Positions 19,726 through 48,425 are shown, counted from the stretch's first letter. The stretch: 64,000 bases of DNA from Spirochaetota bacterium (GCA_016214035.1 JACRPF010000003.1:124001-188000), one strand, 5' to 3'. Notes: generated from the sequence alone by a model not told the origin. Numbers and translations are program-made.

Positions 19726-19785
19726 CACGTATCCTGACTGCGATAACGCCGTCAAAAATCGCACAGTAAAAATCAATGCGTGTCA

Positions 19786-19814
19786 TTGCGCGTTGCCGCA
19801 GTATGTACTATAGT
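19786..19814 (+). promoter_or_regulatory. Promoter of sugar ABC operon, probably leaderless
   Basis: TTGCGC at 19786-19791 and TATAGT at 19809-19814 have a 17-bp spacer. Only six bases separate the -10 box from the ATG at 19821, and there is no Shine-Dalgarno sequence. Transcription should start at or next to the A of the start codon. Confidence 0.6.
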
Positions 19815-19820
19815 ATATTC

Positions 19821-21365: not shown

Positions 21366-21375
21366 GGAGAGCGCA

Positions 21376-22344
21376 ATGAAATTGCCGAAGATCAATGAGA
21401 AGATCGTCAAACAGATAGGACGGTTTGCTCCGCTCATCACGCTCGTCGTCGTGTTCGTTGCGTCGATATTCATCGGCTATCCGCATTTCCTGCAGGGACA
21501 GAACATGGTCAACATTCTCCGGCAGATATCGTATACCGGCATCATCGCGCTCGGTACCACGTTCGTCATCGTCGCGGGCGGTATCGATCTTTCCGTCGGC
21601 GCAATGACCGCCATGGTGGGCGGTATCGTCATCGTGGTGCTGAATCTTTTCGGTGAAGCCTCAATGCTCGGCGTGGGTGTGGCAATGCTTGCCGGTGTCG
21701 CCGCGGGCGGTCTTGCCGGAGCGTTCAATGGGCTCATCGTCACCAAAGGGCGCATCGCTCCGATAATCGTGACGCTCGGTACGATGTCGATATTCCGTTC
21801 GCTGGTCATCTACGCGGGAAGCGCCGGTGAGTTCCGGTCGGTCAATTCGCTTTTTCCCACGGTGGGTGCCGGTTCCGTTCTGGGTCTTCCCGTTCCCATC
21901 ATCGTATTCGTACTGCTTGCGGTGCTGCTGCATCTCCTTTTCAATAACACCGCGTTCGGCCGTTTCGTCTGCGCCATCGGTGCGAACGAACGTGTGGCAT
22001 TATACTCAGCGGTGAATATCAACCGCGTGAAGATGATCACGTATATCATCGGCGGTGTTACGGTGGGTATTACGTCCGTGCTCTGGGCGTCGCGTCTCAA
22101 TTCGGTAAACTCGTCGAATATGGGACTTTTCTATGAACTCGACGCGATAACTGCGGTGGTAATCGGCGGTACCGCGATGTCCGGCGGATTCGGCAGTATC
22201 TGGCGAACGGTGCTCGGATGTCTCACGCTCGGCATCATCAATAACATGCTCAATATGGTTGGCGTCTCAAGCTATCTGCAGGGCGCGGTGAAGGGCGCTG
22301 TCATCATCGGTGCGGTGCTGCTGCAGTACCGCCGGCCGAAATAG
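21376..22344 (+). CDS. Sugar ABC transporter permease (RbsC type)
   Basis: Inner-membrane permease of the CUT2 family (322 aa), with about 8-10 hydrophobic helices. Typical blocks are GTTFVIVAGGIDLSVGA in the first third, AGGLAGAFNGLIVTKGRIAPIIVTLG, and the AVVIGGTAMSGGFGSIW loop that contacts the ATPase. AAGGAGA at 21364-21370 overlaps the upstream stop region and supports ATG 21376. It is the partner of the preceding ATPase. Confidence 0.94.
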   Translation: MKLPKINEKIVKQIGRFAPLITLVVVFVASIFIGYPHFLQGQNMVNILRQISYTGIIALGTTFVIVAGGIDLSVGAMTAMVGGIVIVVLNLFGEASMLGVGVAMLAGVAAGGLAGAFNGLIVTKGRIAPIIVTLGTMSIFRSLVIYAGSAGEFRSVNSLFPTVGAGSVLGLPVPIIVFVLLAVLLHLLFNNTAFGRFVCAIGANERVALYSAVNINRVKMITYIIGGVTVGITSVLWASRLNSVNSSNMGLFYELDAITAVVIGGTAMSGGFGSIWRTVLGCLTLGIINNMLNMVGVSSYLQGAVKGAVIIGAVLLQYRRPK

Positions 22345-22414
22345 TATCAGTGAACCGACCGGTGCGCCCGGTGAGGGATGCATCGTTTGGAATAATATTT
22401 TCGAGGAGTGTCTC

Positions 22415-23380
22415 ATGAAACGGATCGTACTCATGCTGACGGCGGCTCTCTTGGCGGTTGGTGTCGTCAATGCCGCGGGAGCGAAAAAAAAGATGATCGG
22501 TGTTTCGGTACCGAGCGCGGATCATGGCTGGACGGGCGGCATCGTATGGTGGGCGAACAAAGCGGTCACCGACTGGAAAGCGTCGCAGAAGGATATCGGG
22601 TTTTATCTCCTGACGGCGGATTCAGCCACGAAACAGGTTGGCGATGTGGAAGACCTCATTACTAAAAAGATCGACATGCTCGTTATACTGCCGCATGAAT
22701 CGGCGCCGTTAACCCCGGTGGTCCTGGAAGCGCACAAGAAAGGCATCATCGTCGTGGTCGTGGACCGCGGGCTCACGCAGGAGTTCGGGTATGCGAACAT
22801 CGCCGGCGACAATACCGCGTTCGGCCGCATCTGCGGAGAATGGATCGCCAAGGAAATGGGCGGCAAGGGGAACCTCGTATGTCTCGAAGGTCTTCCGGTG
22901 CAGATAAACACCGAGCGTGTGAAGGCGTTTGAAGCCGAGATTAAAAAACATCCCGGCATCAAGATCCTCGATTCGCAGCTTGCGAACTGGTCAACGCAGA
23001 AAGGTCTTGAGGTGATGGAAAATTATCTCCAGAAATACAAAAAGATAGATGCCGTATACGCGCAGGATGACGACGTGCTCAAGGGTGTATTGCAGGCGTA
23101 CGGCGAATCGAAACGCAAAGACGTGAAGGTCATACTCGGCGGCGCCGGTTCAAAGGAAGTGCTTAAGATGATCAAAGACGGTCATCCGCTCGTGAAGGCC
23201 GACGTCACCTACAGCCCGTCGATGATGCGCGACGGCATCAATTTCGGCGTGGAAGTGCTCAACGGCAAACGCCCGAATGATTTCCACACGGCGAAACGCT
23301 CGACGCGCTACGTGATACCGTCGGTGCTCGTGACGAAAGAGAATGTGGATAAATTCTACGAGCCGAAATCGATTTATTAA
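22415..23380 (+). CDS. Periplasmic sugar-binding protein of ABC transporter
   Basis: Periplasmic-binding-protein fold like RbsB/XylF (Peripla_BP_4). A signal peptide occupies the first ~23 residues, ending near VNAAGA. Conserved blocks are ADHGWTGGIVWWANKA in the first lobe, VEDLITKKIDMLVILP, VVVVDRG, and DAVYAQDDDVLKGVLQAYGE in the second lobe. Aromatic residues in GWTGG and WW fit sugar stacking. GAGGAG at 22403-22408 supports ATG 22415. The ligand is not decidable from sequence, but the downstream oxidoreductases suggest a sugar acid, keto-sugar or glycoside. Confidence 0.93.
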   Translation: MKRIVLMLTAALLAVGVVNAAGAKKKMIGVSVPSADHGWTGGIVWWANKAVTDWKASQKDIGFYLLTADSATKQVGDVEDLITKKIDMLVILPHESAPLTPVVLEAHKKGIIVVVVDRGLTQEFGYANIAGDNTAFGRICGEWIAKEMGGKGNLVCLEGLPVQINTERVKAFEAEIKKHPGIKILDSQLANWSTQKGLEVMENYLQKYKKIDAVYAQDDDVLKGVLQAYGESKRKDVKVILGGAGSKEVLKMIKDGHPLVKADVTYSPSMMRDGINFGVEVLNGKRPNDFHTAKRSTRYVIPSVLVTKENVDKFYEPKSIY

Positions 23381-23457: not shown

Positions 23458-24786
23458 ATGAAACGACGCAAAGCAAAAGTATCACGGCGTAAATTCCTTG
23501 CAGGTGCCGCGGCCGCTTTTGCCGGTACGCTCATCCTTCCGAAAAACGTGTTCGGTGCGAATGATAAACTTAATGTCGCCTTCATCGGTGTAGGCGGCAA
23601 GGGCGAAGGCGCGGTGAACAGTGTCAAGAACATCGGCGAGAACATCGTAGCGTTCTGTGACGTGGACGACAAGCGCGCGGAAAAGCCATACACACAGAAT
23701 CCCGACGTGCCGCGCATGCGCGATTACCGGAATATGCTCGACGCCGGTTCGAAGTCCATCGATGCGGTGGTGATATCGACGCCCGACCATCATCACTTTC
23801 CGGCAGCCATGCTTGCCATGTCCATGAAAAAACATGTCTATGTTGAAAAACCGATGGCGCATTCCATTACAGAAGTGCGCGCGATGACTGAGGCGGCGAA
23901 ACGCTACGGCGTAGTGTCGCAGATGGGTAATCAGGGGCACTCGAATGCGGGGCCGTATCTGGTGGAACAATGGCTTAAGGAAGGCATTCTCGGCGAGGTA
24001 CGCACCGTCGAGGCATGGACGAACCGCCCCATCTGGCCGCAGGGTATGGCCGCATTTACCGCCACGGATTATCCGCCGCCCACGCTCGACTGGGACCTCT
24101 GGCTCGGTCCGAGAAGTTCACGCGATTATATCCCCGGTCTGCACCCGTTCTCATGGCGGGCGTATTATGAGTTCGGCTGCGGTGCGCTCGGTGACATGGG
24201 CTGCCATGTGTTCGATCTGCCGTATTATGCGCTCGGTCTCGGTTATCCCACGAAAATTACCGCGGAAGTGAAAACGCTGAGCGAGGTGGCGTATCCGGCT
24301 TCGTCAAAAGTGACGTATGAATTCCCCGCGCGCGGTGACAAACCGCCGGTGACATTCATCTGGCGCGACGGTAAAGGCAATCTCCCGCCGCGTCCGAAGG
24401 ATATCGAACCTGAGCGGAAGATCGACGAGATGGGGGGGAGTTTTCTCCTCGGCTCGAAAGCGACGCTCATGAGCGACACCTACGGCAGCTCGGTACGCAT
24501 CGTTCCGGAAACGAAGATGCAGGAGCTCGCGCCGAGTTTGTCGAAGCTTGCGAAGAAGCCCACCGGCCATATGCAGAACTTCATCAATGCCTGCAAAGGA
24601 ATCGAACCCGCGCATTCGACGTTCGAATATGCGGGACAGCTTACCGAGATGGTGCTGCTCGGCGCGATCGCCCAGCGTGTCGGCGGTGAGATCGTGTACG
24701 ATACGGACAAGCGCGAGATAACAAACAACGAGCAGGCTAATAAGCTCATCGCCGGATATAAACCGCGTGACGGTTGGAGTTTTTGA
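23458..24786 (+). CDS. Tat-exported Gfo/Idh/MocA oxidoreductase 1
   Basis: 442-aa member of the Gfo/Idh/MocA family with a twin-arginine signal (SRRKFLAGAAAAFAG, ending near the VFGA cleavage region). The Rossmann motif FIGVGGKGEGAV follows, then STPDHHH, VYVEKPMAH with the catalytic Lys, and a GALGDMGCHVFDLPY block in the substrate domain. Export through Tat implies that it folds with bound NAD(P) in the cytoplasm, as periplasmic glucose-fructose oxidoreductase does, and works outside it. GGGGAG precedes ATG 23458. It starts the oxidoreductase part of the cluster, 77 nt after the binding protein. Confidence 0.92.
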   Translation: MKRRKAKVSRRKFLAGAAAAFAGTLILPKNVFGANDKLNVAFIGVGGKGEGAVNSVKNIGENIVAFCDVDDKRAEKPYTQNPDVPRMRDYRNMLDAGSKSIDAVVISTPDHHHFPAAMLAMSMKKHVYVEKPMAHSITEVRAMTEAAKRYGVVSQMGNQGHSNAGPYLVEQWLKEGILGEVRTVEAWTNRPIWPQGMAAFTATDYPPPTLDWDLWLGPRSSRDYIPGLHPFSWRAYYEFGCGALGDMGCHVFDLPYYALGLGYPTKITAEVKTLSEVAYPASSKVTYEFPARGDKPPVTFIWRDGKGNLPPRPKDIEPERKIDEMGGSFLLGSKATLMSDTYGSSVRIVPETKMQELAPSLSKLAKKPTGHMQNFINACKGIEPAHSTFEYAGQLTEMVLLGAIAQRVGGEIVYDTDKREITNNEQANKLIAGYKPRDGWSF

Positions 24787-24787
24787 T

Positions 24788-26050
24788 ATGAGATTATCTT
24801 CTATCATAGCCGTTCTATCTATCTGTTCCGCCCTGATGGTTTTCTCTCAGCCGTGCATGTCGGGTACGCCTGAGATCATCTTCGACGGCACATCGCTCAG
24901 CAATTGGGTAGGTCCGAACAACGCTCCGGCGGCGTGGAAACTTGAGAACGGTTATTTTGAGGTGGTACCGAAAGCAAAGAATCTGAACACCGCGACGAAA
25001 TACGGCGATTGCCAGCTGCATATTGAATGGGCGTCACCGCAAAAAGTGGAGAAGGACAGCCAGGGCCGCGGCAACAGCGGCGTATTCCTCATGAACCGCT
25101 ATGAGGTGCAGGTGCTCGATTCATATTCCAATAATACCTATGCCGACGGTCAGGCATCGGCGTTGTACGGTCAGCATCCGCCATTGGTCAATGCGGCACG
25201 GAAGCCCGGCGAGTGGCAGGTGTACGATATCATTTTCCGCAGACCGAAATTCGATGACGCGGGCAATGTGATGAAACCGGCGCGGATGACGATATTTCAT
25301 AACGGCGTGCTCGTTCATCACGATGCGGTGCTCATCGGTCCGGGCATGAACAAGAATTATATTCCGTACCGCAAACACGGAGATACCGATATCATATCAC
25401 TGCAGGACCACGGAAATCTCGTGCGCTATAAGAATGTCTGGATAGTACCGCTCGCGTCCGAAGAGGAGATGATGCCCGATCTCGCGCGCATGCAGTATCA
25501 CACTAATAATCTCGATTACGGAACGAACGCGCGTCCCAGCGGCGTGCCGATAACCAAATGGCGTGTCAATGATATGGCCCGCCCGAAACCGCCGGTCATC
25601 ACGGCCGGCACCGGGCCCGGAGATCCGTCATCGGATGCTGTTGTGCTGTTTGACGGAACGCTCAAAGCGGCTGAAACGACCATGAAGGCTGGCGATTCGA
25701 TGCTTACGGCAAAAGGTAAGCTGATATCGACGCATGAATTCACGAACGCGCAATTGCATTTTGAATTCGGTTCATCCGAACCGGTGACCGTGATGGTATG
25801 CGGCATGAAGATCATGACGGAACCCGGCAGCCACAAATACGATATTGCCGCCTCACGCCGTGTGCTGTTTGGCGGCGGTCAGGCGCTTGCGGCGGTGACG
25901 GTGCTCAAGGACGGCGTTTTCTGTTTTGAGCGGCGTAATCTCATCGACCCGTCTGAGTTGAAACCGGAGAAGATTGTCATCACATCGATTGCGGCGGATA
26001 CGAAGATACGCAATGTTTGGGCTCGCGACACCAAAGCGGAGGCGGAGTAG
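24788..26050 (+). CDS. Secreted DUF1080 (3-keto-glycoside hydrolase-like) protein
   Basis: Secreted 420-aa protein with a signal peptide in the first ~25 residues. Residues ~30-225 form a DUF1080 (3-keto-disaccharide hydrolase) beta-sandwich with the usual start IIFDGTSLSNWVG, then GDCQLHIEWASP, GNSGVFLMNRYEVQVLDS and ISLQDHGNLVRYKNVWI. Residues ~285-415 look like a decayed second copy beginning AVVLFDGTLK, without the central motifs. It begins 2 nt after the upstream stop codon, so it is coupled to the Tat oxidoreductase. A MocA dehydrogenase plus DUF1080 protein is a recognised pairing for oxidising and cleaving glycosides through 3-keto intermediates. Confidence 0.87.
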   Translation: MRLSSIIAVLSICSALMVFSQPCMSGTPEIIFDGTSLSNWVGPNNAPAAWKLENGYFEVVPKAKNLNTATKYGDCQLHIEWASPQKVEKDSQGRGNSGVFLMNRYEVQVLDSYSNNTYADGQASALYGQHPPLVNAARKPGEWQVYDIIFRRPKFDDAGNVMKPARMTIFHNGVLVHHDAVLIGPGMNKNYIPYRKHGDTDIISLQDHGNLVRYKNVWIVPLASEEEMMPDLARMQYHTNNLDYGTNARPSGVPITKWRVNDMARPKPPVITAGTGPGDPSSDAVVLFDGTLKAAETTMKAGDSMLTAKGKLISTHEFTNAQLHFEFGSSEPVTVMVCGMKIMTEPGSHKYDIAASRRVLFGGGQALAAVTVLKDGVFCFERRNLIDPSELKPEKIVITSIAADTKIRNVWARDTKAEAE

Positions 26051-26053
26051 CAT

Positions 26054-27424
26054 ATGGAAAAGACATCGGAACCGATATCACGTCGATCGTTTCTCGGAAC
26101 GGCGGCGAAAGTCACGGCAGCAGCGGCATTGGCGCCGACGGTGCTCAGGGCTATTGAACGCAATAATTCAAAAGAGCTTAATGTCGCCATCATTGGCGCG
26201 GGAACGCAGGGCCGGATACTGCTGCGCGATTCACTGCGCATTCCGAATATCAGGTTCAAGGCGGTTTGCGACATATGGAAATACAGCCAACAGTACGCGG
26301 AACGCTCGCTCGGTAAAGCGGGACATCAGGTGAACGTCTACGAAGATTACCGCGAAATGCTCGCGAAGGAAAAGGATATCGATGCCGTCATCGTCGCGAC
26401 ACCGGACTTCGTGCATGCGGAACATGCGATTGCGGCGCTCAATGCGGGACGGAATGTGTACTGCGAGAAAGAGATGTCCAACACGATAGAGCTTTCGCGC
26501 AGTATGGTTGAGGCGTCGCAGAAAACGGGAAAACTCCTGCAGATTGGTCATCAGCGGCGGTCGAGCCCTGCGTACATGAATGCGCTTGCGATGATAAAGA
26601 ACGACAATGTCTGCGGGCGCATCACCAATTGTTTCGGTCAGTGGAACAGGCCGGCACAGCCGCAGCTGCCGTGGCCCAAACGCTATGAGATACCGGCGGC
26701 GACGCTTAAAAAATTCGGCTATGACAACATGGACAAGTTCATGAACTGGCGCTGGTACCGGAAATTCTCGGCCGGCCCCATCGCCGATCTCGGAAGTCAT
26801 CAGATAGACATCTTCAGCTGGTTTCTCGGCTGCGAGCCGTCAACGGTGACGGCCAACGGCAGCGCGGATTATTATCCCGACCGGGAATGGTATGCCGATG
26901 TGATGGCGGTGTATGAATACGCGACGTCCGCGGGCAGCGTGCGCGCGTTCTATCAGGTGCTCAACACAACGAGCTACGGCAGTTACTTCGAACGCTTTCA
27001 CGGCGACGGCGGTACTATCGTCATTTCGGAAAACGCGGCGATGTGTTACTACGTACCGGAGGCAGAAAAGGAATTGCCCGGATGGCTTTCCGGCGTGAAA
27101 CCGGTTGCCCGTGACGGCATGCAGGTTATACCGTTTCTCGAGGCGCTTGCGAAGAAAGGGTCGTCCGCCGCGGCGATGAAGGAATATCAGGAAAAGAATC
27201 CGCATCAATTCCATCTGGAGAATTTTTACGATGCGGTGCGCGCCAACGACAAAAAGAAACTTACCTGTCCGGCCGAGATCGCATACGGTACCGCCGTATC
27301 GGTGCTCAACGTGATACCGGCGATTGAAAAAGCGGCAAAGGTGAAGATCAGCGAAGCGGCCAAAGGTTCGCGCGGGTTTTCCGGCGGCGATATCATGAAG
27401 ACTGTTAAGTGGATATTGGACTAA
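26054..27424 (+). CDS. Tat-exported Gfo/Idh/MocA oxidoreductase 2
   Basis: 456-aa paralogue of the gene at 23458. The Tat signal is SRRSFLGTAAKVTAAAALAP. Rossmann motif IIGAGTQGRILL, then ATPDFVHAEHA, and NVYCEKEMSN where the usual EKP motif is EKE, so the Lys is kept and the Pro lost. The substrate domain has GPIADLGSHQIDIFSWFLG. The start is 3 nt after the DUF1080 stop. It is one of three exported family members in the cluster, and differences in the substrate block suggest different sugars or positions. Confidence 0.92.
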   Translation: MEKTSEPISRRSFLGTAAKVTAAAALAPTVLRAIERNNSKELNVAIIGAGTQGRILLRDSLRIPNIRFKAVCDIWKYSQQYAERSLGKAGHQVNVYEDYREMLAKEKDIDAVIVATPDFVHAEHAIAALNAGRNVYCEKEMSNTIELSRSMVEASQKTGKLLQIGHQRRSSPAYMNALAMIKNDNVCGRITNCFGQWNRPAQPQLPWPKRYEIPAATLKKFGYDNMDKFMNWRWYRKFSAGPIADLGSHQIDIFSWFLGCEPSTVTANGSADYYPDREWYADVMAVYEYATSAGSVRAFYQVLNTTSYGSYFERFHGDGGTIVISENAAMCYYVPEAEKELPGWLSGVKPVARDGMQVIPFLEALAKKGSSAAAMKEYQEKNPHQFHLENFYDAVRANDKKKLTCPAEIAYGTAVSVLNVIPAIEKAAKVKISEAAKGSRGFSGGDIMKTVKWILD

Positions 27425-27581: not shown

Positions 27582-28145
27582 ATGCTTCACAAGAACGACA
27601 CACTGCACAATCTAATAGGCATCTGCCCGGCGATAGCGGTGACCAGTTTCGCAACCACGGCGATTGCCATGGGCGCGGTGCTGTTTCTCACCATGACGCT
27701 CTCGGCGCTGCTCATCTCACTCACGCGTTCCGCTCTGACGCAGCGTACGCGGCTTGTCGCTCAGGTCGCGGTCATCGTGCTCATCGTCGCCTGTGCGCAG
27801 ATAGTCCTCCGCGCATACTGGTACGACATGGCGAAAACGCTCTCGCCGTATATTGCACTTATCGCGGCGAACTGTCTTACGCTGCATCGCTGCGAGAACT
27901 GTGCGAGCCGTGAAAAGGTTAATGTCGCCGTCGCTGATGCCGCGGGTAACGGGCTTGTTATTGTGCTCGTACTCCTCGCCATCGCGATACCGCGGGAGAT
28001 AATCGGTGGCGGATCGATATTCGGTATTGCGCTTCCGGTGTCGTTCGGGAAGAACATGCTTATGGCCGCTCCGGCGGGGGCGTTCTTCATCGCCGGCATC
28101 ATCGTCTGGGTTATACGCGCGGCGGGCGGGAGGAAGACAGCATGA
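27582..28145 (+). CDS. NqrD/RnfE-like membrane electron-transfer subunit
   Basis: Integral membrane protein with ~6 helices, homologous to NqrD/RnfE, one of the two inverted-topology subunits that carry electrons through the membrane. The conserved first cysteine is in LIGICPAIAVTS (Cys15) and the second in AANCLTLHRCENC (Cys98). In Nqr/Rnf these pair with two cysteines of NqrE/RnfA to hold an intramembrane Fe-S centre. Extra cysteines at about 104 and 107 are unusual. I prefer ATG 27582 with AGGTG six bases upstream; ATG 27579 is possible. The stop overlaps the next start (ATGA). The 157-bp gap before it marks a likely sub-operon boundary. Confidence 0.88.
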   Translation: MLHKNDTLHNLIGICPAIAVTSFATTAIAMGAVLFLTMTLSALLISLTRSALTQRTRLVAQVAVIVLIVACAQIVLRAYWYDMAKTLSPYIALIAANCLTLHRCENCASREKVNVAVADAAGNGLVIVLVLLAIAIPREIIGGGSIFGIALPVSFGKNMLMAAPAGAFFIAGIIVWVIRAAGGRKTA

Positions 28146-28753
28146 AATTGACGATCATTCAATATATAGCGGGAATCTTTTTCAGCGCTGCAATAACAAA
28201 CAACATATTGTTCACGCGGTTTCTCGGCATCTGTCCGGCGGCGGGCGTAGGCCGTGACCCGAAAGCGGCGACATTCATGGGGCTTATCGTAATGGCGCTT
28301 ATGACGGTATCCGCTCCCGTGAATCTTTTACTGTACCGGTTTTTTCTCGCGAAAGAGACATCTATCCTTCATATCGATCTTTCATATCTGTCGTTCGTCG
28401 TGTTCATGCTTGTTATCGCGGCGCTAGTGCAGCTTATCGAAATGATAGCTGAGAAGATGATGCCCGACAGCGCCGGGACGCTCGGTATTTATCTGCCGCT
28501 GGCCGCTGTCAACTGTGCTATTCTCGGTGCAAGTCTTTTCCTGCTCGAAGCGGATATGCATCCTGCATTATCACCGGTGTACGGACTCGGCTGCGGCGCC
28601 GGCTGGCTTCTCGCCGCGTGGATATTCTCGGCACTTGAGATGCGGCTGGCATCGAGCGATGTACCCGAATCGCTCAAAGGCGGCGGTATGACGCTTATAG
28701 CAGCGGGGATAATGGCTGTGGCATTCATGGGCTTTTCAGGGATCACATTATGA
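28142..28753 (+). CDS. NqrE/RnfA-like membrane electron-transfer subunit
   Basis: 203-aa, six-helix membrane protein homologous to NqrE/RnfA. The two ligand cysteines are kept: Cys31 in TRFLGICPAAG and Cys125 in VNCAILGASLF. The paired motif NNILFTRFLG is typical. It overlaps the NqrD-like gene and the next gene by 4 nt each, so the four Nqr-like genes form one translationally coupled block. With its partner it should place an Fe-S centre in the middle of the membrane. Confidence 0.9.
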   Translation: MKLTIIQYIAGIFFSAAITNNILFTRFLGICPAAGVGRDPKAATFMGLIVMALMTVSAPVNLLLYRFFLAKETSILHIDLSYLSFVVFMLVIAALVQLIEMIAEKMMPDSAGTLGIYLPLAAVNCAILGASLFLLEADMHPALSPVYGLGCGAGWLLAAWIFSALEMRLASSDVPESLKGGGMTLIAAGIMAVAFMGFSGITL

Positions 28754-29724
28754 ACAATCTGAAGACAATGCTCAGAAATCTTGTGTTCTTCAATAAGGAA
28801 GGATACACGGCGCATCCGGACAGACCGTCGGCGGATGAGATGGATTCATATTTTGTGACGGCGTTCTATGCGCTTATCCCGTGTATGCTGCTGGCAACGT
28901 ATTATTTCCGCGCGCGTCTGTTTATCGCGCTTTTTGCGGCATTCATCGGTGTCGCGCTCGTGGAGATCATCGTCGCGGCCATGCGCAAACGCCCTATAAG
29001 CGGCGGCGCTTTCGTGTATGCGATGATGTTCGCGCTGTTCGCTCCGTCGGCCGCTCCGGCATGGATGATAGCGGTATCGGCGGCGTGCGGGACGCTTTTC
29101 GGATGTCTTATCTTCGGCGGTGCGGGACGGAATCTCGTTCATCCGGTGGCGCTCGGCAAGGCCTTCCTCGTATACGGTTTCCCGCAGACGGCGATGCTTC
29201 CGTATTTCGGTTCCATGCTCGATATGCCTTCGAAGAACGGCTGGATAGATGTGAGCATCGTCATGCTGGTCTGCATACTTGTCTTTATCATAAAACAGCC
29301 GGACCGCTTCTTTATCCTGCTCGGTATTTTTATCGTGGGATTCCTCACCGCACTGGCGATAACCACCAAAAGTTATCTGCCGTCGGGAAGCACCGCGAAG
29401 ATATTTGTGTCGGACAGCCTTATTTTCAGCATACCGCTTCTGCCGCTTGAACTGAGAAAGATGGGTTCATCGATGCTCGCGATGTGGCATTGGGGCGGAC
29501 TTCTCTTTGCCATGACATTTCTCGTCATCGATCCTGCGATAACACCCCGCGGTATTGCGGCAAAGATTATCTATGGCGCCGTCATCGGCTGTGCGGCGGT
29601 GTTCATGCGTACGCTCACCACGCACGGCGGGGCGGTGGCTTCGGCGGTGATACTCGGTGCTCTCGTGGTGCCGCTCATCGCGTATGCGGTGAACGCGGTA
29701 CGTGCGCAGAGGAGAGCGGCATGA
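28750..29724 (+). CDS. NqrB/RnfD-like membrane subunit
   Basis: 324-aa polytopic membrane protein resembling NqrB/RnfD, the flavin-carrying core subunit of the urea-transporter fold. Recognisable are GGAGRNLVHPVALGKAFL in the middle and MWHWGGLLFAMTFLVIDPAI near residue 250, followed by a GAVIGCAAVFMRTL helix. The usual covalent-FMN motif near the end of the large loop (S/T-G-A-T) is only loosely present as SGSTAK near residue 213. It is shorter than Vibrio NqrB and lacks its long N-terminal extension. It overlaps both neighbours by 4 nt. Confidence 0.85.
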   Translation: MNNLKTMLRNLVFFNKEGYTAHPDRPSADEMDSYFVTAFYALIPCMLLATYYFRARLFIALFAAFIGVALVEIIVAAMRKRPISGGAFVYAMMFALFAPSAAPAWMIAVSAACGTLFGCLIFGGAGRNLVHPVALGKAFLVYGFPQTAMLPYFGSMLDMPSKNGWIDVSIVMLVCILVFIIKQPDRFFILLGIFIVGFLTALAITTKSYLPSGSTAKIFVSDSLIFSIPLLPLELRKMGSSMLAMWHWGGLLFAMTFLVIDPAITPRGIAAKIIYGAVIGCAAVFMRTLTTHGGAVASAVILGALVVPLIAYAVNAVRAQRRAA

Positions 29725-30917
29725 AGCAGCCAGTAAAATACGTCATACTCGCCGTACTCGTCGCGGCATCTATTGCGATACCGGTCACGCTTTCATCGTT
29801 CCTGTCGCCGCTCATCTCAGTGAACGAACAGTATGCCCGCGTCGTCGGCGTACTGTCGGCGTTTCATCTGCCGGTGGCGAAAAGCCGTGCCGATGTATTC
29901 GCTGCATATAAAGCGTCGGTTGCCGATGCGCGTGTAGGTGAGCTGCGGTACAGCACGGTGTCCAACGGGACGACGGGCGGTTATGCTTTTGATATCGTCG
30001 CTCCGGGGAATAACGGTCCGATACGCGGCATACTCGCGCTTGCGTCAGACCGGCGTACGGTGCTCGGTCTTTCGGTGTACGAACATAATGAAGGCCCCGG
30101 TTCCGGCGATGAGATATCGTCCGCAGCATGGCGCAATCAATTCGCAAATCTTCCGCTCTTCGATAATGCGGTCTTCCGCGGAATAGCCGTCATCTCCGGC
30201 AAAAAAAAGGAACCTGTGGCGGGTGCGATACACGGCGATACTCCTGCGGCTGCGGCAGTAGTCCGCGCGCTGAACCGCATGGTCGCTCAGTTTTATGCCG
30301 GCGGACGGCCCGTTGAGGAACTCGATCTCGGGACTACGGTGGATGCCGTCACACGTGCCACACCGGGCTATCCGAAACACGTTGTCAAGCCGCCGAATCT
30401 CCGCGAGGAGGTCAAACGTCCGCCGTTCATGGTGCCGCCGGGACTGACGAACCTGGCGCTCGGGCGTCCGGTCACCGTGAGCATGCCGCCGATCATCGGC
30501 GACCCGGCACAGATCGTCGACAATGTCAAGAAAAGCGGCGACTTCGATTTTGTGGAACTCGGCAAAGGTGTTCAGTGGGCGCAGATAGACCTCGGTGATG
30601 TGCGGACCATATTCACCGTCTGCATCTGGCACTTCTACAAGAATTCCATCATCTATAAAAGCGTCATCGTCCGGATATCCGACGACCCCGCGTTCATAAA
30701 GGACGTGAAGACGATCTACAACAATGATTACGAGAACATCGCCGGGTTCGGCGAAGGGAAAAACACCACATATTATGCGCGCTGGTGGGGCGAACTTGCC
30801 GACGCGCGCGGCGATGATTACAACGGCGTGCGCGGGCGCTATGTCCGCATATACACGGCAGGCGGTGCGGGAGGGGAGGATACGAGGTTCGTGGAGATTG
30901 CGGTTTACGGAAAATAG
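29721..30917 (+). CDS. NqrC/RnfG-like FMN-binding protein fused to discoidin domain
   Basis: 398-aa fusion. One N-terminal helix anchors it. Residues ~30-220 are an NqrC/RnfG-type FMN-binding domain (LSVYEHNEGPGSGDEISSAAW is the family block). The flavinylation site, normally D-x-x-S/T-G-A-T, reads DAVTRAT at ~208-214, so the acceptor Thr is kept but Gly is Arg. A proline-rich linker follows. Residues ~250-398 are a discoidin (F5/8-C-like) sugar-binding domain with WAQIDLGDV and RGRYVRIYTAGG, similar to the separate protein at 35332. The soluble part should face the periplasm. ATG 29721 has GAGGAGAG upstream and overlaps the NqrB-like stop. Confidence 0.86.
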   Translation: MKQPVKYVILAVLVAASIAIPVTLSSFLSPLISVNEQYARVVGVLSAFHLPVAKSRADVFAAYKASVADARVGELRYSTVSNGTTGGYAFDIVAPGNNGPIRGILALASDRRTVLGLSVYEHNEGPGSGDEISSAAWRNQFANLPLFDNAVFRGIAVISGKKKEPVAGAIHGDTPAAAAVVRALNRMVAQFYAGGRPVEELDLGTTVDAVTRATPGYPKHVVKPPNLREEVKRPPFMVPPGLTNLALGRPVTVSMPPIIGDPAQIVDNVKKSGDFDFVELGKGVQWAQIDLGDVRTIFTVCIWHFYKNSIIYKSVIVRISDDPAFIKDVKTIYNNDYENIAGFGEGKNTTYYARWWGELADARGDDYNGVRGRYVRIYTAGGAGGEDTRFVEIAVYGK

Positions 30918-30929
30918 GCGGAGGCAATT

Positions 30930-32198
30930 ATGAAAAAGATCATCAAGAAAAAGTTCTCGAGGCGGTCGTTCTTCGGTGCGGCGGCGGCACTCGCAGCACC
31001 GTTCATCATTCCGTCGCGGGTGTTCGGCCAGACGGCGCCGAGTGACAGGATCAGGATAGCAGCTATCGGTATCGGCAGTCAGGGCGGCGGACTGCTCGGG
31101 GGCTTTCTTGCAAGCGACGCCTGTGAAGTGACCGCGATTTGCGATGTGAGCAAGGTGGCGCGCGACAAAGCCGTTGCGCGTGTTGAAGGAAAATACGGGA
31201 AAAAATGTCCGGTATACGTTGATATACAGGAAATGTTCGACAAGGAAAAGCTCGATGCGGTGGTCACCGCGCTTCCGGACCACTGGCATGCGCTCTCGAC
31301 GATAATGGCATGCAAGACCGGCCTCGACGTATACTGCGAAAAACCGCTTGCGAGATATATCGACGAAGGCAAGGCGATGGTAGCCGCGGTGAATCGATAT
31401 CAGCGCGTTTTCCAGACCGGCAGTATGCAGCGCGCGATGACGCAGACATTCGTCAAACAATGTGAACTCGTGCGTAACGGCTACATCGGCCAGATAAAGG
31501 AAGTGTATGCCGGCGTGGCGCACAAGATGCCCGATATATGCCGGCTTCCCGAACAGGATATTCCCGAGGGTTTCGATTACGAACGCTGGCTCGGGCCCGC
31601 ACCGTGGGCGCCGTATCATCATAACCGCGTCAACGGAAGCTACAGTCAGCGCGTGGGCTGGCGTGCGTGGACCGATTATTCCATCGGCATGTTCGGCGAC
31701 TGGGGCGCGCACCATTTCGACATCGCGCAATGGGGTCTCGGCATGGACGGCACCGGACCGGTGAAAGTGCTCATTCCCGCCGACAGTCCTTACGGCGATT
31801 ATACGTTCAAATACGCCAACGGTATCCCGCTCATCCGTAAGAACGGGCCGAAGGAAGGGAGCGTGCAGTTCATCGGCACCGAGGGCTGGGTGGGCGCGTC
31901 ACGCGAGGGATTCTACTGCTCCGACAACCTCAAGAACGTGCAGCTGAAACCCACCGATATCCGTCTGGGGCGCCGTGTCAGCCATCGCGACGACTTTCTC
32001 AACTGCATTAAGTCGCGGCAGAAGCCGATATGCGATGTTGAAGTGGGTCATCACAGCGCGAACGTCTGCCACATCGCCTATATCGCGGCGATACTCAACC
32101 GGTCGCTCACCTGGGACCCGGCGGCGGAACGCTTTGTCGGTGATGAGCAGGCGAACAGGTTTCTGCGCGGCTCTTATCGTGAACCGTATATTCTGTAA
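30930..32198 (+). CDS. Tat-exported Gfo/Idh/MocA oxidoreductase 3
   Basis: 422-aa exported family member beginning with a lysine-rich n-region and Tat motif SRRSFFGAAAALAAP, cleaved near VFGQ. Rossmann motif IGIGSQGGGLLGG, then ALPDHWHALS, DVYCEKPLAR with the catalytic Lys, and a GMFGDWGAHHFDIAQWGLG block. It follows the FMN-binding/discoidin gene by 12 nt, so this oxidoreductase is co-transcribed with the Nqr-like module. It is the best candidate for a direct electron donor to, or acceptor from, that module. Confidence 0.92.
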   Translation: MKKIIKKKFSRRSFFGAAAALAAPFIIPSRVFGQTAPSDRIRIAAIGIGSQGGGLLGGFLASDACEVTAICDVSKVARDKAVARVEGKYGKKCPVYVDIQEMFDKEKLDAVVTALPDHWHALSTIMACKTGLDVYCEKPLARYIDEGKAMVAAVNRYQRVFQTGSMQRAMTQTFVKQCELVRNGYIGQIKEVYAGVAHKMPDICRLPEQDIPEGFDYERWLGPAPWAPYHHNRVNGSYSQRVGWRAWTDYSIGMFGDWGAHHFDIAQWGLGMDGTGPVKVLIPADSPYGDYTFKYANGIPLIRKNGPKEGSVQFIGTEGWVGASREGFYCSDNLKNVQLKPTDIRLGRRVSHRDDFLNCIKSRQKPICDVEVGHHSANVCHIAYIAAILNRSLTWDPAAERFVGDEQANRFLRGSYREPYIL

Positions 32199-32214: not shown

Positions 32215-35200
32215 ATGAAAAAATATCTGATAACAATATGTGTTGCAGTGCTCGGCGCTGCGTTTCTTGTCGCGCAGGGGAGCCCGAAGGAATTGAAACC
32301 GCTCACGCAGGCGGAGATAGACCGTATTACGGCGGCACTCCCTGAAAAAGCGGAGACGCCGGCAAAAGAGCGGAAGATCCTTTCGTTCTGGCTCTGTCAG
32401 GGCTTTTATCATGATTCGCTCAGGTATATTAACGTTGCGCTCGATCTCATGGGTAAAAAGACCGGTGCGTTCACCGTGACGAATACCGATAAAATGGAGG
32501 TGTTCGACTACGCGACACTTTCGCAGTTCGACGCCGTCGTGTTCAACAATTCGACGATGCTGAAATTTGAGAATACCAATTATCGTGCGGCGCTGTTAAA
32601 GTTCGTCAAAGAGGACGGGAAGGGTGCGGTCGCCATTCACGCCGGGCTTGACAATTTCTACACATTCCCCGAGGCCGCGGAAATGATGGGCGGTATTTTC
32701 GATGCGCATCCGTGGACCGCGGGCGGTACATGGGTCATTAAAAACGATCTTCCCGAACATCCGCTCAACCGCGCGTTCGGCGGCAAGGGCTTTTCGGTGA
32801 AAGAAGAACTCTATCAGTTCAAGACACCGTATTCGCGCGATATCGTAAAAGTACTGCTTACCATCGACATGAAATATGAGCAGAACAGAAGCGGTTCGGC
32901 GTTCAATCCCGAATCCGTACACCGCATGGATGAGGACTTCGCCGTGTCGTGGCTCCGTGAATCGGGCAAAGGCCGCGTGTTCTACTGCGGCATCGGCCAT
33001 AATCCGGAACATACGTGGAACAAAGCGGTGCTGCAGCATTATCTCGATGGTATTCAGTATGCGCTCGGGGATTTTCCTGCGGATGCTGCGCCGGTGAAAA
33101 ATCCGGTGCGTGAAGCCGGTACCGCATATGCCGATCTGGATAAGATGACGGAGGATGTGCTTGCGGCAAAATTAACGAGCACGAGTGATATCGAAGTGAA
33201 GCTCGATATTTGCCGTATTCTCAAAATGAAGGCAACCTGTGCCAGCGTTCCCGCACTGGCATCATTGTTGTCCGACGCGCGCATGTCACATGTGGTCCGC
33301 TACGTCCTTGAAGCACTGTCCTGCGACGAGGCTGCTCAGGCACTTCGTTCTGCGCTCGGTTCCGTTTCCGACATCAAACTCAAAGCGGGTATCATCAGTT
33401 CGCTTGGTGAACGGCGTGACGCATCGGCGGTGCCGGTCATCGCTCAGTATACGGCCAATGCGGATGCAGAACTCGCGAAAGCAGCTCTCATCGCTCTCGG
33501 CAGGATAGGCACCGTTGAAGCTGCTGCAAAACTGGCCGCAGCCCCGAGAACATATATACGCGATTACGAGGATGCGTGTCTCATATGCGCCGATACGCTT
33601 GTCGCATCATCCAATAATGCCGCCGCACTGAAGATATATACCGATATTCAGAAAACGGGAAGTTCGGTGCTCGCGAAGATCGGCGGTTATCGCGGTATGG
33701 TTACGGCGGATCCGGCGAACGCAAAGGCCATTATAAAAAACATGCTTGATAACGCGGATATATCTATCGCCACCACGGGCGCGCTCTGCGTTGCTGACCT
33801 TAAAGAACCCGGTGTGTCGGCATATTTTGCCGGTATGCTCAAAACAATTAAACCGCAGATCCAGGTGGTGATGCTTGCCTCGCTCGCCTCGCTCGGCGAC
33901 AGAAAGACCGGCGACAAAGCCGCGGAACTTCTCGACGCCGGGGATGAGGATGTCGCATCGGCGGCAGCAAAGGCGCTGCTCGATCTCGGAACGGTGTCTC
34001 ATGTAAAGGTGCTTGTGGTGAAAGCCGGCGGCAGCGGCAAAGTATCCGATGCGGCACTCGACACCGTTTCACGGCTCAGCGGGAAGGATATCGATACCGA
34101 ACTGGTAAAGCTTTTGAAAAGCGGCGAGAAACCGGTAGTGCCTGCGGCGGCAAAATGTCTGGCGCGGCGGCAGACAAAGTCGGCGGTACCCGCGCTCATC
34201 GATATCGCAAAAGCGAAGGAATCGAGCACATTGAAAGAGACGTTCAAGGCGCTGCTTGTACTTGCCGATGAAAGCAATCTGTCCGATCTTGTGGCGCTTC
34301 TCAAGGAATATGACGGTGATGAACGGGTGAAGGATGTCATCGCCGGTGTGTACACGCGTGTCGCGAACCGGTCAAAATTCGCCGGCATTTTCACTGCCGC
34401 GTATGCGGGGGCGCAGGGCGGTTTTAAGACATCGCTTCTGCCGCTGCTCGCGATGTCGGGCGGCGCTGATGAATTGGCGCTGGTAGCCGGTGCGCTCAAG
34501 GATGCCGACAGTGAGACGCAGACCGCGGCGGTGAAGGCGCTTGCCGAATGGCCCAATGACGGTGCTCTCGAACCGCTGTGGACCGTGGTACAGACGCCCG
34601 CGGCGCCCGCACATAAGATACTCGCGCTCAGAGGTTATGCGCGTGCGCTGACGGCGCCGTCGCTCACACGGTCAGCGGCGGAAACACTCGCGATGCTCAG
34701 GAACGCCCTGACCGCCGCCGACCGGGACGATGAGAAACGCATGATAATTGGTGCAATCGCGGTGGTGTATCATCCCGATGCGCTCGCCGTGCTTAAGGAA
34801 TATTCGTCCGATAAAGTGCTCGGCAAGGATGCCGAACAGGCGTACCAGAAGCTCAAGAAACAGCTTGAAAGTCCGCCGGCGCTTTATGCATCGCATAATG
34901 ACCGGAATATCAAAAAGGCGATGGATAATGATATTGCGACACGCTGGGATAGCGGTAAAAAACAGGAACCCGGCATGTGGTTCATGGCGGATTGCCGGTA
35001 TGAACGGACATTCGATAATATCAAGCTTGATACCGGGGCATCGGCGAACGATTTTCCCAATGCGTATGAGGTGTATATATCCAACAGCACCAATGACTGG
35101 AAAAGTCCGGTGGTGAAAGGCGAGGGGAAAAAAGGGCAGCTTGTCATTCCGTGCAACAAGGCGCGCGGTCAGTATGTCAAAGTCGTGCAGACGGGGAGTA

Positions 35201-35253
35201 CGACGTCGTGGTTCTGGTCGATCCATGAGTTCTCTTTCAACGTAAAGGAGTGA
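32215..35253 (+). CDS. Secreted ThuA-HEAT-discoidin giant protein
   Basis: 1012-aa secreted protein. A signal peptide covers the first ~22 residues. A ThuA-like (trehalose-utilisation, glutamine-amidotransferase-fold) domain spans ~55-285, with FWLCQGFYHDS, AVAIHAGLDNFY and GRVFYCGIGHNPE. HEAT/PBS-lyase repeats fill ~310-860, alanine-rich and about 30-35 residues each. A discoidin-type domain (from ~885, DNDIATRWDSG, then QYVKVVQTGS) ends it. This composite is typical of sugar-degradation loci of planctomycete and verrucomicrobial type. ATG 32215 has GGGG eight bases upstream; another ATG six bases earlier is possible. It probably acts on or holds exported sugar substrates. Confidence 0.88.
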   Translation: MKKYLITICVAVLGAAFLVAQGSPKELKPLTQAEIDRITAALPEKAETPAKERKILSFWLCQGFYHDSLRYINVALDLMGKKTGAFTVTNTDKMEVFDYATLSQFDAVVFNNSTMLKFENTNYRAALLKFVKEDGKGAVAIHAGLDNFYTFPEAAEMMGGIFDAHPWTAGGTWVIKNDLPEHPLNRAFGGKGFSVKEELYQFKTPYSRDIVKVLLTIDMKYEQNRSGSAFNPESVHRMDEDFAVSWLRESGKGRVFYCGIGHNPEHTWNKAVLQHYLDGIQYALGDFPADAAPVKNPVREAGTAYADLDKMTEDVLAAKLTSTSDIEVKLDICRILKMKATCASVPALASLLSDARMSHVVRYVLEALSCDEAAQALRSALGSVSDIKLKAGIISSLGERRDASAVPVIAQYTANADAELAKAALIALGRIGTVEAAAKLAAAPRTYIRDYEDACLICADTLVASSNNAAALKIYTDIQKTGSSVLAKIGGYRGMVTADPANAKAIIKNMLDNADISIATTGALCVADLKEPGVSAYFAGMLKTIKPQIQVVMLASLASLGDRKTGDKAAELLDAGDEDVASAAAKALLDLGTVSHVKVLVVKAGGSGKVSDAALDTVSRLSGKDIDTELVKLLKSGEKPVVPAAAKCLARRQTKSAVPALIDIAKAKESSTLKETFKALLVLADESNLSDLVALLKEYDGDERVKDVIAGVYTRVANRSKFAGIFTAAYAGAQGGFKTSLLPLLAMSGGADELALVAGALKDADSETQTAAVKALAEWPNDGALEPLWTVVQTPAAPAHKILALRGYARALTAPSLTRSAAETLAMLRNALTAADRDDEKRMIIGAIAVVYHPDALAVLKEYSSDKVLGKDAEQAYQKLKKQLESPPALYASHNDRNIKKAMDNDIATRWDSGKKQEPGMWFMADCRYERTFDNIKLDTGASANDFPNAYEVYISNSTNDWKSPVVKGEGKKGQLVIPCNKARGQYVKVVQTGSTTSWFWSIHEFSFNVKE

Positions 35254-35331: not shown

Positions 35332-36000
35332 ATGCATCGCAGATTCAAAGGTATAGCAGCGGCTCTTGCCGGCGTGACGTTGTTCGGCGCACTGGCGTTC
35401 GCCGCCGACAAGATGGTGGAACTGACGCTCAAGCTTCCGAAGGCCATGTTCGCGGGTACGCCCACCAAGATGGTGTCGCCAAATCTCGATCCCAAATCGG
35501 GTCAGAAGCGCGCAGCATTCATGGTGCCTGAAGGAACGAAGCTCATATCGGCTAAGAAAAAAGTCACCGCGAGCGACAAGTATCCGGTCATCGGCGATCT
35601 TGAACAGATTACCGACGGCGACAAGGAAGGCGGCGACGGCAGTTTCGTCGAGCTCGGACCCAACAAGCAGTGGGTGCAGATTGACCTCGGCGCTAAATCG
35701 ACGATACAGGCAATCGCGCTCTGGCATTATCACATGCAGGCGCGTATCTACCGCGACATCGTCATCCAGGTTGCCGCTGACGCCGATTTCATCACCGACG
35801 TGAAGACTGTGTATAACAGCGATCACGACAACTCGCTCGGTCTCGGCGCGGGGAAGGATTATGAATACATCGAGACGTTTGAAGGACGGCTCATCGATGC
35901 GAAAGGTGTTACGGGACGCTATGTGCGGCTTTACAGCGCCGGCAACACGGCGAACGCGAACAATCACTACATCGAAGTGGAAGTGTACGGAGCGCAATAG
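35332..36000 (+). CDS. Secreted discoidin-domain protein
   Basis: 222-aa secreted protein: signal peptide in the first ~24 residues, then a single discoidin-like domain from ~70 with ISAKKKVTASDKYPVIGD, KQWVQIDLGAKSTIQAIALW and GRYVRLYSAGNT. It is recognisably related to the C-terminal domain of the Nqr-like fusion at 29721, sharing the QIDLG, DVKTVYN/DVKTIYN and RGRYVR/TGRYVR patterns. A strong AGGAGG site precedes ATG 35332. It may be a free version of the same binding module, directing components to one glycan or to each other. Confidence 0.85.
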   Translation: MHRRFKGIAAALAGVTLFGALAFAADKMVELTLKLPKAMFAGTPTKMVSPNLDPKSGQKRAAFMVPEGTKLISAKKKVTASDKYPVIGDLEQITDGDKEGGDGSFVELGPNKQWVQIDLGAKSTIQAIALWHYHMQARIYRDIVIQVAADADFITDVKTVYNSDHDNSLGLGAGKDYEYIETFEGRLIDAKGVTGRYVRLYSAGNTANANNHYIEVEVYGAQ

Positions 36001-36011
36001 GTTTCTCAATC

Positions 36012-37547
36012 ATGACGATAGACGTACGCCGGGCGGCACTCTTTGCAGTGCTGTCCGGCGTTGTCATTATTATCGCCGTGTTTCTCCGCTTCAGCAGCCT
36101 TGACGCGCGGGTGATGCATCATGACGAGGCGAATCAGGCGGTGCGTTTCTGTGCATTGTTCACCGACGGCACATACGTGTACGACCCGGTGGAGCATCAC
36201 GGCCCCACGCTGTATTATCTGTCACTGCCGGCGGCAAAGCTTTTCGCCCGCAACGTTTCTTCGGTAACCGAAGCCATGCTTCGTGCCGTCCCGGCTTTTT
36301 TCGGTGTACTGCTCGTGCTTTTGACATTCGCACTGGCGGGTTTTTCTCGGACGGCAAAAGTCATCACGGCGGCTTGTGCGGCGGTGTCACCGGCATTGGT
36401 GTATTACAGCCGGTATTTCATCCAGGAAATGCTGCTTGTCTGCTTTACGTTCGGTGTCATCGTCTCGCTCTGGCGTTTTCTGCGATCACCGACGGCGTTC
36501 ATGGCCGCAATCGCCGGTATGTGTTTCGGTCTCATGTGCGCGACAAAAGAAACATGGGTGCTTGTTACTGCCGCTCTTATACCCGCCGTCATCGTAGTTC
36601 TCATGATGCATCGCCATGACGGTATGTTCCGCTCTGTCCGTGAATATTGCAGAATGCAATTTATCTTTGCCGGAATTCTCGGCGTCGTGATTCCCGTGGC
36701 GCTTTTTTTTACTTCGTTCGGGACGAATCCAACGGGTATTTTCGACGTGTTTCGTTCGGTACTGCCGTATATTTCGCGAAGCAGCGGCAGCGGGCATGCG
36801 CATCCATGGTATTTCTATATAACCACACTCATCGGAAACAGGATTGGGCATTTCTATATTACTGATGTTGTTTTCATGGTATCCGGTTTGGCCGGTGTCG
36901 TGCTGGCGTTTGCCGGAAAGATTGGCGGTCGTGAGCAGAATGCTTTTGCCCGATTCATAGCCGTATATACGCTCTCGCTCGCACTCATCTACTCGATTAT
37001 ACCCTACAAGACACCGTGGTGTTTGGCCGGATTTTTTCATGGCTTCATCCTGCTTGCGGGTATGGCCGCAGCGGCAGTATATGCCGGATATACATCCAGA
37101 GCGGCAAGAATAGTCATGACGATTGCTGCCGGTACGATGGCCTTTTTTTTCGGCGTGCAGTCCTATGCCGCCGGTGTTCTCTATGGCGCCGATTCCAGAA
37201 ATCCGTATGCGTATGTACACACGCTTCCCGATTATCTGAAATGCATGGCGCGTATCAATCAGGTGGCGGATACGAATACCTTTATCGCCGTACTGGCATC
37301 GGCAACCGATACCTGGCCTGCACCGTGGTATCTCAGGAATTATCAGCGTGTCGGGTACTGGACGGACACGAATCCGGATCCGCAGATTCTGCAGGCGCCG
37401 GTCATTCTTGTCGCGCAGGAGTATCAGCCGGCAGTGCACTCCCGCCTTGAACATACGCATGTGCTTGAATATTACGGACTCAGGGAAAATGTCTTTGCGG
37501 CGTTGTACATCGAGCGCGGTCTTTATAAAAAGGTCATACGCCCGTGA
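36012..37547 (+). CDS. TIGR03663-like membrane glycosyltransferase (PMT/GT39 type)
   Basis: 511-aa polytopic protein with about ten hydrophobic helices. The N-terminal loop motif MHHDEANQAVRF and the later HHGPTLYYLSLPAAK match the TIGR03663 group, distant relatives of protein mannosyltransferases that use lipid-linked sugars. It lies 11 nt after the discoidin gene, and its stop overlaps the NusG-II gene start (GTGA), which ties it to the flavin-related genes downstream. Its acceptor is unknown; glycosylation of the exported proteins of this cluster is conceivable. Confidence 0.8.
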   Translation: MTIDVRRAALFAVLSGVVIIIAVFLRFSSLDARVMHHDEANQAVRFCALFTDGTYVYDPVEHHGPTLYYLSLPAAKLFARNVSSVTEAMLRAVPAFFGVLLVLLTFALAGFSRTAKVITAACAAVSPALVYYSRYFIQEMLLVCFTFGVIVSLWRFLRSPTAFMAAIAGMCFGLMCATKETWVLVTAALIPAVIVVLMMHRHDGMFRSVREYCRMQFIFAGILGVVIPVALFFTSFGTNPTGIFDVFRSVLPYISRSSGSGHAHPWYFYITTLIGNRIGHFYITDVVFMVSGLAGVVLAFAGKIGGREQNAFARFIAVYTLSLALIYSIIPYKTPWCLAGFFHGFILLAGMAAAAVYAGYTSRAARIVMTIAAGTMAFFFGVQSYAAGVLYGADSRNPYAYVHTLPDYLKCMARINQVADTNTFIAVLASATDTWPAPWYLRNYQRVGYWTDTNPDPQILQAPVILVAQEYQPAVHSRLEHTHVLEYYGLRENVFAALYIERGLYKKVIRP

Positions 37548-37903
37548 AACGACAGCGTATCATCCGACCTGGAGATGTAATGCTCGCCGTAATCGCCGTC
37601 GCGGCGGCACTTACGATAATCGTGACCGGGCATTCCGGACGCGGCGTGCGGGCGCTCATCTACCGTGACGGTGTACTTGTTCGTACCATGGATCTGGCCC
37701 GTGCGGCATGCGTCGATGCAGGCGGTATGCGAATAGAAACTAAGGATGGAAAAGTACGGATGCGGAGTTCCGACTGTGTGCATCGATATTGCGAACGTGC
37801 CGGTTGGATCGATGCGCCGCATGAACAAATTGTCTGCGTTCCGAACCGTATCCTGATAGCCGTTGACGGCGGAGAAAACCGGTGCGATGCGGTGTCCCGA
37901 TGA
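37544..37903 (+). CDS. NusG domain II protein (EetA-like)
   Basis: 119-aa protein with one N-terminal transmembrane helix (GDVMLAVIAVAAALTIIV) and an extracytoplasmic NusG-II-type domain. Cysteines occur in AACVDAGG, SDCVHRYCERAG and EQIVCVPNRI; the CVHRYC...CVPN pattern is typical of the group and could hold a cofactor or disulfides. Genes of this family pair with Gx-transporter and ApbE genes in Gram-positive flavin-based extracellular electron-transfer loci, where I recall the NusG-II protein being EetA. The GTG start overlaps the upstream stop. Its own stop overlaps ATG 37900 of the next gene. Confidence 0.8.
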   Translation: MKRQRIIRPGDVMLAVIAVAAALTIIVTGHSGRGVRALIYRDGVLVRTMDLARAACVDAGGMRIETKDGKVRMRSSDCVHRYCERAGWIDAPHEQIVCVPNRILIAVDGGENRCDAVSR

Positions 37904-43357: not shown

Positions 43358-43374
43358 AAGTCCTCCAAAGCAAG

Positions 43375-44841: not shown

Positions 44842-44876
44842 GAAATCTCCTTGTCCGGTATCCGGACATGACCGCG

Positions 44877-46646: not shown

Positions 46647-46650
46647 TGCA

Positions 46651-48420: not shown

Positions 48421-48425
48421 GGTGC

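Follow-up and report, generated by a model that had tools for sequence, protein, structure and literature searches.

A divergent NqrD-E-B-C gene cluster in a Spirochaetota genome as a putative NqrF-less member of an Nqr-derived conduit family

The window, meaning the whole stretch of DNA analyzed here, is 64,000 nucleotides in length and comes from a Spirochaetota bacterium (GCA_016214035.1, JACRPF010000003.1:124001-188000). It contains a cluster of four genes that resemble the D, E, B, and C subunits of Nqr and their Rnf counterparts (Table 1). Each neighboring pair shares 4 nucleotides, and the ribosome-binding sites are plausible. Pfam matches are Rnf-Nqr for NqrD (1e-33) and NqrE (9e-43), NQR2_RnfD_RnfE for NqrB (7e-30), and FMN_bind for NqrC (1e-4). 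The best NCBIfam models are nqrD, nqrE, nqrB, and rnfG/nqrC, with every score far under the curated cut-off; the four subunits are therefore divergent. NqrB carries PF03116 as its sole domain and has no NAD-binding domain fused to it. An earlier reading made from the sequence alone (the sequence-only reading) had described D-E-B-C-like genes with 4-nucleotide overlaps, and the coordinates and model matches agree with it.

Table 1. Features of the gene run, with positions counted from the first nucleotide of the window.
Feature	Position	Strand	Remarks
Sugar-type ABC importer: ATPase, permease, periplasmic binding protein	19776..23380	+	
MocA1, Tat-exported Gfo/Idh/MocA	23458..24786	+	best match BT_2158 glycoside 3-dehydrogenase family
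DUF1080 / 3-keto-disaccharide hydrolase domain protein	24785..26050	+	start codon unfixed
MocA2, Tat-exported Gfo/Idh/MocA	26054..27424	+	
NqrD/RnfE-like subunit	27582..28145	+	Fe-S ligands Cys15, Cys98; extra Cys104, Cys107 outside family pattern
NqrE/RnfA-like subunit	28142..28753	+	Fe-S ligands Cys31, Cys125; long branch
NqrB/RnfD-like subunit	28750..29724	+	without covalent-FMN motif DxxTxATP; predicted fold NqrB/RnfD
NqrC/RnfG-like subunit	29721..30917	+	C-terminal F5/8-type domain fused; ApbE-type motif DAVTRATPGYPK
MocA3, Tat-exported Gfo/Idh/MocA oxidoreductase	30930..32198	+	between NqrC and F58
ThuA-HEAT-F5/8 protein	32215..35253	+	between NqrC and F58; start codon approximate
F58, small exported F5/8-domain protein	35332..36000	+	conserved downstream partner of NqrC in relatives; start approximate
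Agl23/PMT-like membrane glycosyltransferase	36012..37547	+	after F58 in three relatives
ECF S component (PF07456, EetB family) + EcfT/CbiQ fusion	37882..38976	+	candidate FAD exporter
ApbE flavin transferase	39020..40021	+	sole ApbE found in genome

All genes from the ABC importer (19776) through ApbE (40021) lie on one strand. The widest gaps in this gene run precede NqrD (157 bp) and follow the Agl23-like gene (334 bp). MocA1, the DUF1080 gene, and MocA2 are spaced by -2 and 3 bp, and the gaps from NqrC through MocA3 and ThuA to F58 are 12, 16, and 78 bp. A promoter scan returned matches at chance level. An [FeFe] hydrogenase operon adjoins the gene run.

Gfo/Idh/MocA proteins with twin-arginine signals (SRR-x-F) are present on both sides of the cluster, as the sequence-only reading held. 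MocA1 scores 404.9 bits against the BT_2158-family model, which has a cut-off of 750, and the DUF1080 domain match is above its cut-off. The bacterial 3-keto-glycoside pathway is represented by BT2157/BT2158 and by Caulobacter LacABC with DUF1080 in two reports (PMC9007349, PMC11300592). The three Tat-MocA genes, DUF1080, and ThuA around the cluster suggest, by their predicted functions, a 3-keto-sugar pathway.

The four Fe-S cysteines of NqrD and NqrE were found as first read, and they are invariant across the subunit alignments. The residues that follow Cys31 of NqrE are altered (CPAAG versus CSFIA). Cys104 and Cys107 of NqrD were considered as an additional metal site and rejected; only Cys104 recurs, in one relative.

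The covalent-FMN motif DxxTxATP is missing from NqrB in all 17 family members, which are the Spirochaetota genome and 16 relatives described below. One NqrB of the family (L201) is a fragment cut by a contig edge. Among 45 other NqrB/RnfD sequences, 38 contain the strict FMN pattern. Most of the remaining seven show a near-variant, and one (L161) shows none visible. The predicted structure of NqrB has a pLDDT of 73.6, and its significant structure matches are NqrB and RnfD entries only. With the covalent-FMN site of NqrB lost, the Nqr/Rnf electron circuit would lack its return half, and the FMN-less NqrB may serve as a scaffold.

NqrC has a second flavin-type motif, DAVTRATPGYPK, at residues 208-219, after the FMN_bind domain. 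This motif 2 has the form DxVTR[AS]TPGYPK and is kept in 17 of 17 family C proteins; the strict form, DxVTRATPGYPK, is missing from all of 103 other NqrC-like frames. Most Lentisphaeria relatives retain the canonical NqrC FMN site (DAITGAS and similar), but in the Spirochaetota genome it is degenerate (GAIHGDT). The ApbE consensus is D-x-x-[S/T]-G-A-[S/T] (PMC12052999), and motif 2 agrees with it apart from Arg replacing Gly. From this likeness we infer that motif 2 may carry a covalent FMN. The AlphaFold model of NqrC (pLDDT 41.6) is too poor for use. ApbE and the EetB-FmnA-type fusion are adjacent to each other, 7-8 kb downstream of NqrC in the same gene run. In Listeria, EetB (PF07456) with FmnA exports FAD for flavinylation (PMC9973259).

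The genome searched for the absent subunits is a 22-contig draft of 5.2 Mb that is 98.2% complete. No NQRA_N match (NqrA) and no RnfC_N match (RnfC) was found anywhere in it. For RnfB it gives only sub-threshold 4Fe-4S matches, and for NqrF only partial, sub-threshold matches located in other enzymes. The best NqrF match is a 291-aa FAD/NAD protein amid hydrogenase-type genes, and the other is a protein that has a 2Fe-2S domain at its N terminus; judging by sequence, neither is NqrF. The genome has no third Rnf-Nqr gene besides the NqrD- and NqrE-like pair. The absence of NqrA/RnfC and NqrF/RnfB, first stated for the window, thus extends to the whole genome, and given the completeness of the assembly the absence of NqrF is likely, not certain.

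Relatives were sought among 85,000 genomes in a motif-guided scan. The query consisted of the window NqrE and NqrB plus two X-mask rows with motif alternatives, which are search wildcards and not real proteins. The scan returned at least 80 loci, and more relatives may exist. Among the matches listed, 78 of 80 loci lack a D-E-(F)-B-C arrangement, and most have the canonical B-C-D-E order. The other two (L078 and L087, both Lentisphaerae MAGs) have D, E, one gene, B, and then a C bearing the same F5/8 fusion. The gene between E and B is NqrF, scoring 258-272 bits (cut-off 295). When the window NqrC was compared with 198 genomes from the class to which L087 belongs, full-length orthologs were found in 16, with 42-49% identity and the F5/8 fusion included. 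A set of 388 genomes drawn from the whole phylum of that class added no full-length NqrC ortholog outside the class set.

The operon of the relatives, where contigs show it, is (D)-E-F-B-C, and in several of them no NqrD was found beside E. F58 directly follows C in nine relatives, and an Agl23-like gene follows F58 in three. In one genome (G420), a single protein combines C with an F58-like domain. The F58 domain alone is common in Verrucomicrobiota, where it occurs without the C fusion. Neither the window nor any family locus contains NqrA; the same NqrA queries succeed at two canonical Nqr loci of one relative genome (L159 and L164), which served as positive controls.

No second family member was seen among 393 genomes of the window's phylum, whose RnfD proteins group with those of named Spirochaetia MAGs, which points to Spirochaetota. 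Searches restricted to Spirochaetota gave canonical Rnf-type neighborhoods only. A single-protein NqrB scan of genome contigs and test scans of viral contigs with motif alignments gave no match. Plasmid records contained canonical NqrB only, and the F5/8 domain was unmatched in them.

The window protein joins the Lentisphaeria family in the NqrB tree (99% SH-aLRT) and in the NqrD tree (87% SH-aLRT). NqrE forms a long branch of ambiguous placement, and grouping with the family is not rejected by the AU test (p = 0.19). Membership in the family is shown by the NqrB tree and by the full-length orthology of NqrC. The window branch lengths are 4.7 for NqrD and 3.4 for NqrE, much longer than the branches within the family. 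These two subunits are the fastest evolving, yet they have kept the four Fe-S cysteines. In known complexes D and E take electrons from NqrF or RnfB (PMC12174285), so an acceleration after the loss of F fits either a new cytosolic partner or relaxed constraint. We favor a changed partner on account of the kept cysteines; relaxed constraint following F loss could also produce the long branches.

Judged by its genes, the Spirochaetota locus is a divergent, F-less member of an undescribed, putative Nqr-derived conduit family. It has the F5/8-fused NqrC with DxVTR[AS]TPGYPK and the NqrB without its FMN site; it lacks NqrF between E and B, which overlap by 4 nucleotides. Sixteen Lentisphaeria genomes have the same operon with NqrF retained, so the arrangement represents a variant not described before and more than a pump that has broken down. 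The missing NqrF is read as a derived loss here, because the NqrB tree and the NqrC orthology hold.

MocA3 and ThuA lie within a C-F58-Agl23 block that the Lentisphaeria relatives otherwise conserve. No MocA, DUF1080, or ThuA gene was found at any Lentisphaeria family locus, some of which are on short contigs. The sequence-only reading had coupled the conduit to periplasmic sugar oxidation. As a general rule this is not supported: judged by the refuting condition set in that reading, the Tat-MocA neighbors are unique to one genome among the relatives found, and the coupling therefore becomes a local hypothesis. For this one genome, the gene context makes the link plausible.

The electron path of Nqr runs from NqrF through the NqrDE Fe-S center, the FMN of NqrC, the FMN of NqrB, and riboflavin to quinone. 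With the FMN gone from NqrB and NqrA dropped, this circuit would be cut after NqrC. The cluster probably encodes an Nqr-derived half-complex (usual operon NqrD-E-F-B-C(F5/8)-F58) that has kept the cytosol-to-periplasm half, here without NqrF. The NqrD/NqrE Fe-S center would carry electrons across the membrane to a covalent FMN on the periplasmic NqrC, with no quinone or NAD+ output. Ion pumping by such a D-E-B-C complex appears unlikely. A minimal transmembrane conduit in place of a normal pump had been proposed before, and the loss of both the NqrB FMN site and NqrA in all 17 members supports it. The proposal that the conduit has no input subunit is true of the Spirochaetota genome; it is not the ancestral state, as the relatives encode NqrF.

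In Lentisphaeria, NqrF would feed in electrons from NADH, which would give an NADH-to-periplasm path. Because the relatives place NqrF between E and B, the lineage is best read as an NADH-to-periplasm half-Nqr from which the Spirochaetota genome lost F. With NqrF gone, a soluble cytosolic carrier would have to meet D/E directly. This carrier is most likely ferredoxin or flavodoxin in a cell that has an [FeFe] hydrogenase. On the periplasmic side, the partner is probably one of the exported proteins encoded alongside, and the Tat-MocA dehydrogenases of a 3-keto-sugar pathway are possible candidates. Electron transfer, the identity of the partners, and the direction of flow are what we infer for the conduit. 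In a further form of the proposal, which we regard as unlikely, a ferredoxin-type carrier in the cytosol would exchange electrons with the NAD held in the Tat-exported Gfo/Idh/MocA dehydrogenases.

The direction of flow may be weighed from the neighboring genes. In a more specific version of the coupling proposed from the sequence alone, Tat-MocA enzymes may oxidize glycosides at C3 with bound NAD and pass the electrons inward through NqrC-FMN and NqrDE to the cytosol, with DUF1080 splitting the 3-keto product and the ABC importer taking it up. The BT_2158-like MocA1 is tightly spaced with DUF1080 and MocA2, the ABC importer lies upstream in the same direction, and MocA3 and ThuA lie within the conserved C-F58 interval. 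If glycoside oxidation is periplasmic and keto-sugar reduction is cytosolic, an inward path is needed. However, the association is found in one genome only, the NqrF of the relatives implies outward flow from NADH, and the pathway could be redox-neutral inside the periplasm; inward flow is on balance doubtful. Tentatively, and with slightly more confidence, electrons may instead leave through NqrC-FMN and F58 to another acceptor in the periplasm or envelope (iron, thiols, or a glycan-bound target to which the F5/8 domains give access), with the Tat-MocA genes as bystanders on one transcript. The conserved neighbors are F58 and the Agl23-like gene and not MocA, C is fused to the F58-like domain in G420, and the NqrF of the relatives sets an outward direction. 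No acceptor gene was identified, however, and F58 need not be electron-linked, since in Verrucomicrobiota it is often found where the C fusion is lacking.

The cluster could also be a decaying remnant that has been non-functional since NqrF was lost, given the long D/E branches and the degenerate canonical FMN site of C. This is improbable, as the four frames are intact with their 4-nucleotide overlaps, none of the four cysteines has been lost, motif 2 is retained, and the gene run also includes the only ApbE detected in the genome. An ordinary Nqr or Rnf with its other subunits elsewhere, or in the missing 1.8% of the genome, is conceivable for a 22-contig draft. It would require that NqrA or RnfC and also NqrF or RnfB be missing simultaneously, and both the FMN-less NqrB and the lack of NqrA in the relatives speak against it; we give it very little credence.

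The half-complex resembles Na+-NQR in its NqrD, E, B, and C homologs, its Fe-S cysteines, the FMN_bind domain of NqrC, and, in relatives, NqrF. It differs in lacking NqrA and the NqrB FMN site, in the fusion of NqrC to an F5/8 domain, in its gene order (D-E-(F)-B-C versus A-B-C-D-E-F), and, in the Spirochaetota genome, in the absence of NqrF. With Rnf it shares a homologous membrane core and an expected dependence on ApbE, whereas it lacks RnfB and RnfC, and its RnfD-like subunit has no FMN site. Nqr/Rnf-like two-subunit systems have a B subunit fused to an NAD domain, plus C, and no D or E (PMC8238504, PMC10979944). Their B-like subunit also lacks the FMN threonine; the conduit, in contrast, keeps the D/E Fe-S site, and its NAD enzyme, if present, is a separate NqrF. 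The BT_2158-like MocA, DUF1080 hydrolase, and ThuA in one gene run recall the 3-keto-glycoside pathway; the accessible sections of PMC9007349 and PMC11300592 mention no Nqr genes alongside its known versions. The literature searched, which included few subscription papers, contained no D-E-F-B-C system with an F5/8-fused C.

Described partial Nqr systems keep B and C, whereas this family keeps the D/E Fe-S path and drops the return path. The family is a natural experiment that separates the parts of Nqr and Rnf required to move electrons across the membrane from those required to pump ions. An exchange between ferredoxin and MocA-bound NAD, if real, would account for the balancing of NAD-dependent sugar oxidation in the periplasm. 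Should the partner in that compartment be a Tat-exported NAD enzyme, the conduit would offer a solution to the recycling of the bound NAD(H) there.

The NqrD-like protein of the window carries two additional cysteines, Cys104 and Cys107, directly past the Fe-S ligand Cys98 (NCLTLHRCENCA). The Fe-S site requires cysteines from NqrD and NqrE alike. In a Lentisphaeria subgroup (loci L199, L200, L202, L205, and L206), NqrE is the first gene of the operon, and no NqrD was found beside it among the adjacent genes.

The hydrogenase genes of the window are convergent to the gene for the flavin transferase ApbE.

Coordinates of the features in the window
Feature	Position	Strand
NqrD	27582-28145	
[FeFe]-hydrogenase maturases HydE, HydF, HydG and NADH-linked trimeric hydrogenase	41097-48929	minus

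Elsewhere, six Rnf-Nqr gene pairs are present within one genome (or bin), the 14.1 Mb MAG G393. Another B subunit, at locus L161, also seems to lack the covalent-FMN motif.

The small exported F5/8-domain protein, F58, has the signature LPKPxFxGTP...MVPxG...WVQIDLG. It is common across Verrucomicrobiota (loci L209-L217 and others), mostly without the NqrC fusion. In genome G420 (loci L180 and L208), a single 721-amino-acid frame joins NqrC-F5/8 to a second, F58-like F5/8 domain. This fusion suggests that NqrC-F5/8 and F58 are functionally linked.
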